From the NCBI GenBank assembly GCA_938041955.1, contig CALISD010000010.1, positions 1 to 64,000 of the forward strand: DNA of 64,000 nt, read 5' to 3'. The translations under genes were made by a program, and so were the position numbers. Below are positions 8,652-37,594 of this stretch, in pieces (position 1 is the stretch's first letter; every line of letters begins with the position of its first letter). A model generated the notes under the pieces. The model was not told the DNA's origin. It saw only the letters and a list, made by a program, of their open reading frames with translations, and did no database searches. Source of the DNA: an uncultured Granulosicoccaceae bacterium. GTDB taxonomy: Bacteria > Pseudomonadota > Gammaproteobacteria > Granulosicoccales > Granulosicoccaceae.

Positions 8652-8917
8652 TGCCATACTATTAACTTGCGATCCCCAGACAGGGGCATAAGCCTACAGC
8701 GCATCCACCATAGGCTACAGGAAAACCCCACGCGTGAGCGAGTGGCACGCCGTGCATGTCCAAACCTCATCCTGACCTGTAAATGATAGAGAGGCACATC
8801 TAATACACAAAGTAGCTGCTAACAACAGAAGATACCAGTACACATTACGGCAGAACGCCCACTCGTCACGCATCGGGTTTCCAAAAGCGGCCCGACGGTC
8901 AATCGCTTTTATTCTGC
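8652..8917. other. Intergenic gap with an inverted 21-23 base motif
   Basis: No gene is supported in this 266-base gap between convergent genes. It holds GGAAAACCCCACGCGTGAGC from 8721 and, in opposite orientation, CTCGTCACGCATCGGGTTTCC ending near 8882. The two form a widely spaced imperfect inverted repeat. A similar motif occurs at 37493-37515 and, more distantly, in the arms of the tandem array at 22.8-24.0 kb. Confidence 0.4.
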
Positions 8918-16199: not shown

Positions 16200-16537
16200 A
16201 GATCTACCGCTCCTTACCACGCTTCGCATGACTACGGAAGATGAAAGGAAATACACATCATTAGCAATCGACCATCAAGGTAACCCGCTGCGTAAGCAAG
16301 GCCACCAACGGCCGTCCAATGAATCAACAGCCTAAGCGCTGCCTCATGCTCACGCAGTGGGCTTCCTCAATTCGATCTACCGCTGCCTACCGCTCCTGAC
16401 CATGCCTCGCATGACTACCGAAGATGAAAGGAAATGCACATCATTAGCAACAGACCATCAAGGTGAACCGCAGCGTGATCAAGGCCAGTACCGCTCATCC
16501 AACAAATCCAAAGCCTAAGCACTGTTCCTTGCCATGT
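16200..16537 (+). repeat. Two-unit tandem repeat, diverged relative of the 184-bp array
   Basis: Two units start with ACCATCAAGG near 16271 and 16454, a period of 183 bases. Each contains a block like GGTAACCCGCTGCGTAAGCA, a reverse-oriented partner (GCTCACGCAGTGGGCTTCC in the first unit), a TCGATCTACCGCTGCCTACC linker and GAAAGGAAATACACATCATT. Period, order and core words match the seven-unit array at 22797-24037, so the two arrays belong to one family. The two-unit array is more diverged and the hairpin of its second unit is degraded. It fills most of the 560-base gap 16113-16672. Confidence 0.8.
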
Positions 16538-22001: not shown

Positions 22002-22745
22002 ATGACAAGAATTCTACTTATATGTAGCGCAGCGCTACTGCTGACTGCGTGCTCTGGTGACTGGGGCTGGTATGTTGTAGATCCGACAAACCCCAAAGGT
22101 CTGATCAACTTAAAGTTCATGATCAGCGGACTTAAGTACACCGTACTGCTGTCAGTGACGGCCATCGTTATTTCTATTGTTATCGGTCTGTTAGTCGCAC
22201 TACCCGGCCTGTCTACCAACAAATGGCTCAGAGGCTTTAATCGGGTGTACGTGGAGCTGGTAAGAGCGGTTCCTATTCTTGTAATGATACTGTGGGTTTA
22301 CTACGGCTTACCGCAACTCCTGGGCATAACTATTACCGTGTTCTGGGCGGGTGTCATCGCTCTTGCGTTATCAGACAGTGCATTTGAAGCAGAGATATTC
22401 AGAGCCGGAATACAATCAATAGACAAAGGCCAGTACGAAGCATCACACACCGTCGCCCTTGGCTATATGGATACGATGCGGTTTATCATCCTTCCGCAGG
22501 CGATAAAAAGAATCTTACCGGCGCTTGGCAATCAGCTGGTGTACATGCTGAAAATGTCGTCACTGGTATCGGTCATCGGCATGCAGGAACTGACCCGCAA
22601 AGCCAATGAGCTGGTCGTCACAGAATATCGACCGCTGGAAATCTACACCGTATTGCTACTCGAATACTTACTACTGATCTTAGTGGTATCTGCCGGTGTT
22701 CGTTGGCTGGAAAGACGCTGGGAGACCGACTCGCTCAACAAGTAG
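22002..22745 (+). CDS. Amino-acid ABC transporter permease with a lipobox-like N-terminus
   Basis: The permease is about 247 residues, of the HisM/GlnP family. The EAA loop is visible as EASHTVALGYMDTMRFIILPQAIKRILP. About five hydrophobic segments follow residue 45. The chosen ATG 22002 follows the ATPase stop by four bases; the frame is open further upstream only by running through the ATPase gene. Unusually, the N-terminus MTRILLICSAALLLTACSGDW resembles a lipoprotein signal with cysteine 17. It could be a real lipid-anchored N-terminus or simply a first membrane helix. Only one permease gene is present, so a homodimer is implied. Confidence 0.88.
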   Translation: MTRILLICSAALLLTACSGDWGWYVVDPTNPKGLINLKFMISGLKYTVLLSVTAIVISIVIGLLVALPGLSTNKWLRGFNRVYVELVRAVPILVMILWVYYGLPQLLGITITVFWAGVIALALSDSAFEAEIFRAGIQSIDKGQYEASHTVALGYMDTMRFIILPQAIKRILPALGNQLVYMLKMSSLVSVIGMQELTRKANELVVTEYRPLEIYTVLLLEYLLLILVVSAGVRWLERRWETDSLNK

Positions 22746-22796: not shown

Positions 22797-24037
22797 TCAC
22801 GGCAACAAGAGTCTGAAAAGGAATATGCATCATGAATAACAGACGATCAAGGTAACCCGCCGCGTGAGCAAGGCCTGAAACCGCTCGTCCAGCAGATCAG
22901 CAGCGTAACCGCTGTCCTTGCTCACGCTACGGGCTACCTAAGATCGATCTACGACTGCCTTCTGCTCCTTGCCATGCTTCGTGCGGCAACAGGCGTATAA
23001 AAGGAATAAGGATCATAGGTAACGACGATCAACGCAACCCGCCGCGCGAGCAAGGCCCGAAACCGCTCGTCCAACAGATCAACAGCGTAAACGCTGCTCC
23101 TTGCTCACGGGCGGGCTACCCAAGATCGATCTACGACTGCCTTCTGCTCCTTGCCATGCTACGTACGGTTACAACGAGATTGAAAAGGAATACACCTCAT
23201 CCGTAATAGACGATCAAGGTAACCCGCTGCGTGAGCAAGGCCCGAAACCGCTCGTCCTACCGATCAACAGCGTAAACGCTGATCCTTGCTAACGCTGCGG
23301 GCTACCTAAGATCGATCTGCGACTGCCTTCTGCTTCTTGCCATGCTACGTACGGCAACAGGCGTATAAAAGGAATATGGATCATAGGTAACGACGATCAA
23401 GGCAACCCGCTGCGTGAGCAAGGCCGAAACCGCTCGTCCAACAGATCAACAGCGTAAACGCTGATCCTTGCTAACGCTACGGGCTACCCAAGATCGATCT
23501 ACGACTGCCTCTGCTCCTTGCCATGCTACGTACAGTTACAACGAGATTGAAAAGGAATACACCTCATCTGTAATAGACGATCAAGGTAACCCGCTGCGTG
23601 AGCAAGGCAGAAACCGCTCGTCCTACCGATCAACAGCGTAACCGCTGTCCTTGCTCACTCTGCGCGCTACTCAAGATCGATCTTCGACTGCCTTCTGCTC
23701 CTTGCCATGTTAAGTACGGCAACAGGAGTCTGAAAAGGAATACACCTCATCCGTAATAGACGATCAAGGTAACCCGCTGCGTGAGCAAGGCCGAAACCCC
23801 GCTCGTCCAACGAGATCAACAGCTTAACCGCTGTCCTTGCTCACGCTGCGGGCTACCCAAGATCGATCTGCGACTGCCACTTTCTTCGTGTCATGCATCA
23901 TGCAGTTACAGGAGTCTGAAAAGGATTACACCTCATCCCTAATAGACGATCAAGGCAACCCGCTGCGTGAGCAAGGCCCGAAACCGCTCGTCCAACAGAT
24001 CAACAGCGTAACCGCTGCCCTTGCTCACTCTGCGGGC
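22797..24037 (+). repeat. Tandem array of seven ~184-bp units, each with a long hairpin
   Basis: The word CGATCAA marks unit positions 22844, 23026, 23211, 23394, 23578, 23761 and 23947, giving spacings of 182-186 bases. Each unit holds an inverted repeat: left arm GGTAACCCGCTGCGTGAGCA(AGG) and right arm (CCT)TGCTCACGCTGCGGGCTACC, 21 of 23 positions paired. The loop is about 45 bases and contains CAGCGTAACCGCTG. A linker then carries the perfect palindrome AGATCGATCT. Units 2 and 4 share GGCGTATAAAAGGAATA with GATCATAGGTAACGA. Units 3 and 5 share TTACAACGAGATTGAAAAGG and CCTACCGATCAACAGCG. This points to duplication of a two-unit block. Open frames inside the array are repeat artefacts. It ends 13 bases before the gluconokinase stop. 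Confidence 0.92.
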
Positions 24038-24049
24038 TTCAACTTACAT

Positions 24050-24556
24050 TCAAAATACTGTTGCGACCTTCTCGATAGCCACAGCGATAACTTCCTCCAT
24101 CGTCGGAGTGATATCAATCAGGATCCCGGTTTCGCTCTGATCGAGCAGCTCAAGCGTCGCATACTGGCTGTCTAATAAACTCGCAGGCATGAAATGCCCA
24201 ACACGTGCCGCCATGCGCCTGGCTATCACGGCTTGATCGGCATGCAGGTGCACAAACAGCACCGCACCGTTTGAATGCGTGCATATGTGATCGCGATAGG
24301 CTCGACGTAACGCCGAGCAGCTAACCACCGCCGACGAACCATCTGAGTTCATGCTACACATACTCTCACCGACGCGCTGTAACCAGGGCCATCGATCACT
24401 ATCGGTGAGCGCTTCACCGCGAGACATTTTTTCAACGCTGGCAGGATCGTGTAGCTCATCCCCTTCGACAAATCGAAAATTAAAATGATCCGCCAACGCT
24501 TTACCAACTGTGGTTTTTCCACAACCGGCAACCCCCATCACTACAATGTTATCCAT
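24050..24556 (-). CDS. gntK: Gluconokinase
   Basis: The 168-residue kinase phosphorylates D-gluconate to 6-phosphogluconate. Walker A GVAGCGKTT lies at the N-terminus, followed by the family segment FVEGDELH and then MSRGEALTDSDRWPWL, all diagnostic of GntK/IdnK. SCSALRRAYRD near residue 85 also fits. ATG 24556 gives the expected family length; the frame further upstream overlaps the dehydrogenase gene. The start lies three bases after the stop of the dehydrogenase gene at 24559-25314, so the two form an operon. The gene's 3' end abuts the tandem repeat array, which therefore sits in its transcript's 3' region. Confidence 0.93.
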   Translation of the reverse strand: MDNIVVMGVAGCGKTTVGKALADHFNFRFVEGDELHDPASVEKMSRGEALTDSDRWPWLQRVGESMCSMNSDGSSAVVSCSALRRAYRDHICTHSNGAVLFVHLHADQAVIARRMAARVGHFMPASLLDSQYATLELLDQSETGILIDITPTMEEVIAVAIEKVATVF

Positions 24557-37423: not shown

Positions 37424-37594
37424 GCCAGCAGATCAAGTCCTACAAAACTCCACGCCTCACCGCGACTAACCTGCCCCAAATTCAATCAGACCCCCAAGGA
37501 AACCCGACGCGTAAGCGAGTACATCAAATCCCACACGTCATCCACGCCTCGCCCTAACTTTAGTTTCGCTGCTGCGGAACTAAATTCAAACATC
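37424..37594. other. Gap with a REP-like motif and a hairpin
   Basis: Contains GGAAACCCGACGCGTAAGCG from 37495, similar to the motif at 8721. It also contains a hairpin TTTAGTT-(12 bases)-AACTAAA near 37559-37584, just before the family 2 repeat. I see no gene. Confidence 0.45.

Follow-up and report, generated by a model that had tools for sequence, protein, structure and literature searches.

The window is the whole stretch of 64,000 nucleotides analysed here, and lies on contig C10 of the 6.18-Mb draft genome of a Granulosicoccaceae MAG (G000). An ABC permease gene and gntK, named from their translations, form a convergent pair with stop codons at 22745 and 24050, and between them is a tandem array of hairpins. 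The array contains no gene, no open reading frame spans it, and its unit lengths (182–186 bp) are mostly not multiples of 3. The sequence-only reading was thus right to call it non-coding, and a coding repeat was rejected on the same grounds of variable unit length and absence of a spanning frame. No tRNA was found in the window. Two related forms of a short core occur: type A, the 23-bp sequence GGTARCCCGCWGCGTGAGCAAGG in the arms of the array's hairpins, and its sister, type B, AACCCGACGCGTSAGCGAG. The features are as follows.

8726..8742, + strand: solitary type-B core
16204..16532, + strand: the window's other type-A array, decayed and consisting of two hairpins and a linker
22797..24040, + strand: type-A tandem array, period about 184 bp, with two-unit substructure (Tandem Repeats Finder, profile hits, linker identities)
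22845..22948, + strand: hairpin 1, an inverted doublet of the core (profile hit, folding)
23027..23130, + strand: hairpin 2 (profile hit)
23212..23316, + strand: hairpin 3 (profile hit, folding)
23395..23498, + strand: hairpin 4 (profile hit)
23579..23681, + strand: hairpin 5 (profile hit)
23762..23867, + strand: hairpin 6 (profile hit)
23948..24040, + strand: hairpin 7, truncated where the array stops, ten bases away from the stop codon of gntK (profile hit, ORF list, folding)
37503..37519, + strand: solitary type-B core, exact

Tandem Repeats Finder (TRF) places the array at 22799–24038 with a period of 182 bp and 6.7 copies (score 1686), and gives a better score (1847) to a period of 367 bp and 3.3 copies, from which it follows that the dimeric higher-order unit is real. 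TRF and seven hairpin profile hits confirm the seven units of about 184 bp that had been described from the sequence. The array starts with a partial linker, followed by seven hairpins with six linkers between them. The extent first proposed, 22797–24037, is real, except that the last unit ends within a hairpin at about 24040. Linker 1 shares 93% identity with linker 3, and linker 2 shares 96% with linker 4; the remaining pairs are at 64–88%. A dimer was therefore duplicated after amplification of single units, which bears out the earlier suggestion; the private variants it reported for units 2/4 and 3/5 correspond to these linker pairs if units are counted linker-first.

The intact hairpins of the array are much more stable on folding than their shuffles (z −6.3 and −7.7), while a monomer of the core folds like its shuffles (z 0.39). 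The 23-bp stem noted previously is present, but lies within a longer, imperfect stem that extends over about 28 bp from GATC to GATC. An inner small stem-loop had also been described; the stem-loop of the linker is at chance level (z 0.5). The palindrome AGATCGATCT, said to be in each unit, occurs in six of the seven, but in just 7 of 121 full hairpins across the genome, and is thus essentially private to this array. GATC is strongly over-represented, occurring 25 times per kb in the window array and 15.4 times per kb over the family's arrays as a whole, compared with 5.2 per kb in the flanks. This excess may be a consequence of the repetition of one unit, or a pointer to Dam methylation or a GATC reader.

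The array is not an isolated feature. A DNA search of the genome found about 40 further places, a covariance model recovered at least 142 hairpins (150 candidates scored), and a profile scan found at least 182 hairpins at no fewer than 59 loci, with 1 to 8 per locus and a median spacing of 184 bp; these counts come from sampled stretches and are lower bounds. Contig ends adjoin 17 of the 59 type-A loci, so the real numbers are probably higher, and in practical terms arrays of this family break assemblies. The complete 184-bp unit, linker included, is common to all 59 loci, and no reading frame longer than 450 nt overlaps any of the arrays at them. Hairpins of one array share 89% identity and hairpins of different arrays 79%; for linkers the corresponding values are 85% and 58%. 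The nearest relative of a hairpin lies in its own array in 71 of 107 cases, against an expected 2.3%. Amplification was therefore local and followed dispersal. The term satellite-like element, one of several offered by the sequence-only reading, is apt; the window array is one of the 59 loci. The same reading had allowed that the array could reduce to a local neutral amplification; the arms do vary without compensation, but with 59 loci in the genome and relatives within the genus, it is not merely that.

Both neighbouring genes are visible at 37 loci, of which 15 lie between convergent, 19 between co-directional and 3 between divergent genes. Control neighbouring pairs from the same stretches comprise 30 convergent, 99 co-directional and 33 divergent pairs. 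Array sites thus have an excess of convergent pairs (p = 0.008) and a deficit of divergent ones (p = 0.10), figures that are approximate because reading frames were assigned by a simple longest-first rule.

The preference for 3′ flanks and the great stability of the hairpins are what one would expect of a structured RNA array, as first suggested, or of a 3′-end RNA element that stabilises or regulates the mRNAs of convergent genes. The substitutions argue otherwise. In 41 hairpins, about one per array, none of the 26 outer pairs has changed on both sides, and covariation measures, calculated on the structure of the folded consensus, equal those of their shuffles. Mismatches of the A.C kind outnumber G.T in 115 hairpins (186 versus 131). 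What is conserved in the hairpin is the arm sequence, CCCGC-GCGTGAGCAAGG most of all, and the core is more strongly conserved than loop or linker. Rfam has no match to the window array, and there is no promoter or terminator signal inside it. Together with the absence of the hairpins from corresponding sites in a sister species (described below), these results make an RNA role very improbable, and a structured RNA family was rejected for want of compensatory stem changes and of an Rfam match. An intrinsic terminator was also rejected, there being no GC-rich stem with a T run within the array; the sole terminator-like site, at 24062–24083, is outside it. A CRISPR had been dismissed from the outset and this holds, since the linkers recur within the array and there are no unique spacers.

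Comparison with the sister species G007, which has about 90% DNA identity beside the window array, was made on about 1.0 Mb of an assembly that is 77% complete. At five sites (three in L025, one in L031, and window 16274–16532), both flanks of a G000 array fall on one G007 stretch, at 87–90% identity, and none of the five has a type-A hairpin. Absence was judged at syntenic sites and is thus independent of the completeness of the assembly. One of the five has a solitary type-B core, and another a type-B array of 41-bp period. At this last intergenic site a type-A array of 184-bp period in G000 (L031:3887–4350) stands opposite the type-B array in G007 (L356:8520–9155), as if the site had been used by both types. 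The G007 counterpart of the main site of the window also lacks a type-A hairpin. There, 15.7 kb of other genes (contig C177:4073–19775; L373, L341) separate the permease from gntK; among them are apparent type I secretion genes and an apparent large surface protein rich in repeats. Part of this block adjoins the permease in G003 too, so that the permease/gntK junction of G000 may be the scar of a deletion or rearrangement. Read from the sequences at the five sites, the pattern favours a gain of type-A arrays in G000, with loss in G007 a conceivable though less favoured course.

The core extends beyond these two genomes. Counting both arms of a hairpin, type-A hits number 258 in G000, 142 in G013 and 0 in G007, and type-B hits 180 in G000 and 269 in G007; control patterns consisting of the cores read backwards gave zero hits throughout. 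Within a single genus, then, some genomes have no copies and others have hundreds. The arrangement of the cores also varies. G013 has mainly single-arm direct arrays, with periods of 31–159 bp and a linker that differs at nearly every locus. Inverted doublets are found with periods of about 154–169 bp (also 311–319 bp) in G010, 184–208 bp in G012 and 80–104 bp in G017. Within the genus and family, therefore, it is the core that recurs, and not the unit as defined by period and linker. In the one-core-per-unit arrays of G013 (L224, L227, L233, L237, L238, L241) the locus-specific linkers are rich in A and C, with a strong strand asymmetry in base composition. The alignment of type-A with type-B loops is marginal, 15 of 1000 shuffles being equally good. 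The foot of the core is variable: GTAA or GTAG in G000, GGAA in G013 and in type B, and CCAA or GTAA in Planctomycetes. At the 5′ foot, type B has CCGA and type A has CCGC.

This distribution bears on the suggestion of a protein-binding platform for chromosome organisation, whether for gyrase, a nucleoid protein or a Dam/SeqA-like GATC reader. Conservation of the core above loop and linker would suit such a role, as would GATC at three times its flanking density (15.4 versus 5.2 per kb), and the REPs and BIMEs of E. coli are reported to bind several proteins (PMC2817692). A platform on which the chromosome depends would hardly be expected to vary from no copies to hundreds within a genus, or to occupy sites that are not conserved in a sister species, and the GATC excess may be explained by repetition of a single unit. 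We regard this role as highly unlikely.

A scan of named genomes with an 18-bp core gave Granulosicoccaceae and Planctomycetes among the matches listed; chance alone should yield a few scattered matches elsewhere. A gene for a 158-residue Y1 transposase (PF01797, 26.7 bits) in a Schlesneria MAG has inverted doublets of a related core on both sides. Relatives of this protein, which we refer to as RAYTs (REP-associated transposases of the HUH/Y1 kind), were found in 10 of 14 planctomycete genomes that had been selected for carrying the core. The core lies within about 1.5 kb at 10 of 27 loci encoding RAYT relatives and was not found at the other 17, with 83 copies in total against 0 in the reversed control; a few of the 27 loci overlap, and three are gammaproteobacterial. 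In Rhodopirellula solitaria a type-A/type-B doublet directly follows the stop codon of the RAYT gene, and type-B copies lie upstream. The core here, GGTAACCCGCAGCGTGAGCAAGG, matches the window arms at 22 of 23 bases. In Neorhodopirellula pilleata (L311) a single RAYT gene has about 29 tandem cores on its two sides, at spacings of 32 and 65 bp, so that the same amplification is seen in a planctomycete.

The Schlesneria and R. solitaria proteins carry the class-3 motifs NHVH/NHMH, W[TA] and Y----Q, as identified by eye rather than with a published class-3 profile. When planctomycete Y1 loci are ranked by Pfam score, only one gene among the top 30 has the core near it, because the relevant subtype scores low in Pfam. 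No sequence relative was found in the PDB, and a single-sequence structure prediction for the R. solitaria protein was too poor for use (pLDDT 39).

It is worth considering at this point whether the repeats could be a MITE-like element with terminal inverted repeats of about 28 bp, mobilised by an unrelated transposase (for example of the DDE type) and then amplified in tandem, with its likeness to RAYT-flanking REPs due to a REP sequence picked up on the way. The long, nearly unbroken arms do resemble terminal inverted repeats, the monomer has no stem of its own, and the full 184-bp unit is shared, linker and all, by the 59 loci. In relatives, however, the same core forms direct arrays of single arms, as well as doublets whose loops and linkers are different, and in Planctomycetes it lies on both sides of RAYT genes; a MITE of another family would predict neither. 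We therefore consider this explanation unlikely, though the least unlikely of the alternatives.

A protein search of 57 genomes found one strong relative of the planctomycete RAYT, and it is in G000 itself, on contig C183. The gene stops at the contig end after 121 codons; the HUH motif NHMH is present, and the catalytic tyrosine and remaining class-3 motifs lie beyond the end. The protein is 71% identical to the R. solitaria RAYT over 120 residues, and a tree pairs the two with support of 92/98, although the tree is mostly poorly resolved and some of its rows are fragments. Relatives occur in 3 of 369 sampled genomes of the same bacterial class, the other two at 33–38% identity. Contamination was rejected as the source of C183: from base 1387 the contig is syntenic with the sister species (83–86%), its G+C content equals that of the window, and its tetranucleotide distance is 0.08 to the window and 0.39 to planctomycetes. 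A Pfam Y1_Tnp search of G000 returned only an IS200-like gene, the model having missed the C183 RAYT, and Y1 genes at another 30 loci had no core near them. The IS200-type Y1 transposase gene of G000 (C111:477–833; L153, L223) is a separate gene, interrupted by a stop codon and without the core in its vicinity.

About 385 bp upstream of the C183 RAYT are three tandem type-B doublet units with a period of 186 bp. The C183 gene has type B beside it, and type A flanks the 71%-identical gene of R. solitaria; no type-A sequence was seen beside any RAYT in Granulosicoccaceae. That the C183 enzyme moved the type-A doublets would nevertheless be a reasonable proposal. The core and the RAYT are associated in Planctomycetes, and the RAYT of G000 is akin to one from that other phylum; the simplest reading is a cross-phylum transfer of the RAYT, probably together with its REPs. 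The claim that the array is not a typical REP was accordingly correct only in part. The monomer has neither a constant GTAG foot nor a strong stem, but the core flanks RAYT genes and a RAYT is present in the genome, and in kind the array is a cluster of REP doublets (REPINs).

No RAYT was found in the draft assemblies of G013, with its 142 type-A hits, or of G007, with 269 of type B. The G013 case would fit a neutral satellite, in which an ancestral decayed REP doublet and its flank spread by recombination or slippage with no transposase in the lineage; homogeneity within arrays and two-unit blocks are also what recombination is expected to produce. Recombination does not, though, seed about 50 separate places between genes when a sister species, at 87–90% identity and with conserved flanks, has nothing there. 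This makes a purely neutral origin improbable, somewhat more so than a MITE.

On the basis of these observations, we consider it probable that the window array is a tandem REPIN-type cluster of class-3 REPs, dispersed across the genome by a RAYT after cross-phylum acquisition and then amplified locally. Each hairpin joins two 23-bp REP-like cores in inverted orientation and is non-autonomous, of the REPIN or BIME kind, and the core would belong to the REP family that accompanies the 'class 3' HUH/Y1 transposases, chiefly of Planctomycetes. The RAYT would have entered the Granulosicoccaceae lineage from a planctomycete-like source. Doublets would then have been copied to about 60 intergenic places, presumably after the HUH enzyme had cut their hairpins in single-stranded form. 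A doublet and the adjoining linker were then amplified head to tail at each site; because the arrays are homogeneous, we infer unequal recombination or replication slippage. In the window array, single units were amplified first and the two-unit block afterwards. A function for the host is unnecessary for explaining the pattern of the array.

A stronger version is possible, and we put it forward only tentatively. In every array the core is kept, while period and linker differ by locus and by species. It could be that a class-3-type HUH transposase and its REPs crossed from Planctomycetes to a family of Gammaproteobacteria and drove repeated, species-specific bursts of satellites, with the core seeding tandem duplication. 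If true, this would be a transposase-linked satellite-generating system, and not ordinary REP dispersal.

REPIN clusters are already known; the class-3 REP family, the expansion on a satellite scale and the cross-phylum link are new. In Pseudomonas fluorescens SBW25 there are 16 tandem REPIN clusters made of hairpins and flanks, with a neighbour-distance peak of 184 bp and clusters beside RAYT genes (Bertels and Rainey 2011, PMC3116915). The family described here has the same inverted REP doublets forming one hairpin, tandem clusters that include flanks, dispersed intergenic copies, adjacency of its type-B cluster to a RAYT and a RAYT gene (incomplete) in the genome; the shared value of 184 bp is coincidental. 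The SBW25 clusters have at most four REPINs, a canonical REP palindrome and a RAYT of another class (PMC3116915), whereas the present family comprises about 50 multi-unit arrays with as many as eight hairpins, its monomer is weak and its RAYT is of class-3 type.

Among transposases, class 3 of the TnpA-Y1 family (Quentin et al. 2018, PMC6006769) is the best protein match for the RAYTs found here. The class is described there as rare, of unknown behaviour and found foremost in Planctomycetes, and as a possible bridge between IS200 transposons and REP systems. Its genes are said to be flanked by atypical structures, and these structures can reach high copy number, about 600 in Solibacter usitatus. 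The CnGA foot given for the class fits type B (CCGA) but not type A (CCGC), and the text of the paper does not report satellite-like arrays or Granulosicoccaceae.

Di Nocera et al. (2013, PMC3733652) describe GTAG REP dimers that are reiterated in tandem with flanking DNA and prefer co-directional and convergent gene pairs. Inverted dimers, tandem clusters with flanks and the gene-pair preference are all shared with the present family, and Rhodopirellula baltica is among the species stated there to have such REPs. Unlike the GTAG super-family, the present family has no constant GTAG foot (GTAG, GTAA, GGAA and CCAA all occur) and no monomer stem of 5–13 bp. The comparison is one of descriptions, and an identical family may exist in R. 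baltica.

Subirana and Messeguer (2019, PMC6749651) report dispersed families of long-unit, non-coding satellites as a rarity among prokaryotes, with examples in Methanocella conradii and Leptospira interrogans. Like them, the present family consists of non-coding long-unit tandem repeats at several loci of one genome. The families named for those two species have 3–6 satellites with units of 37–69 bp, while here there are about 50 arrays of 184-bp units with an origin in REPs.

According to the literature, RAYTs are domesticated transposases, present in single copy and inherited vertically (PMC8049555). The present case is of a close pair (71% for the protein, 22 of 23 bases for the core) with one member in Rhodopirellula and the other in a gammaproteobacterium, and of sister species that differ in many arrays although the sites themselves are otherwise conserved. 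The movement of REPs and RAYTs between phyla, and the turning of REP doublets into satellites, thereby become testable, and the family is well suited to studying the spread and multiplication of such repeats.
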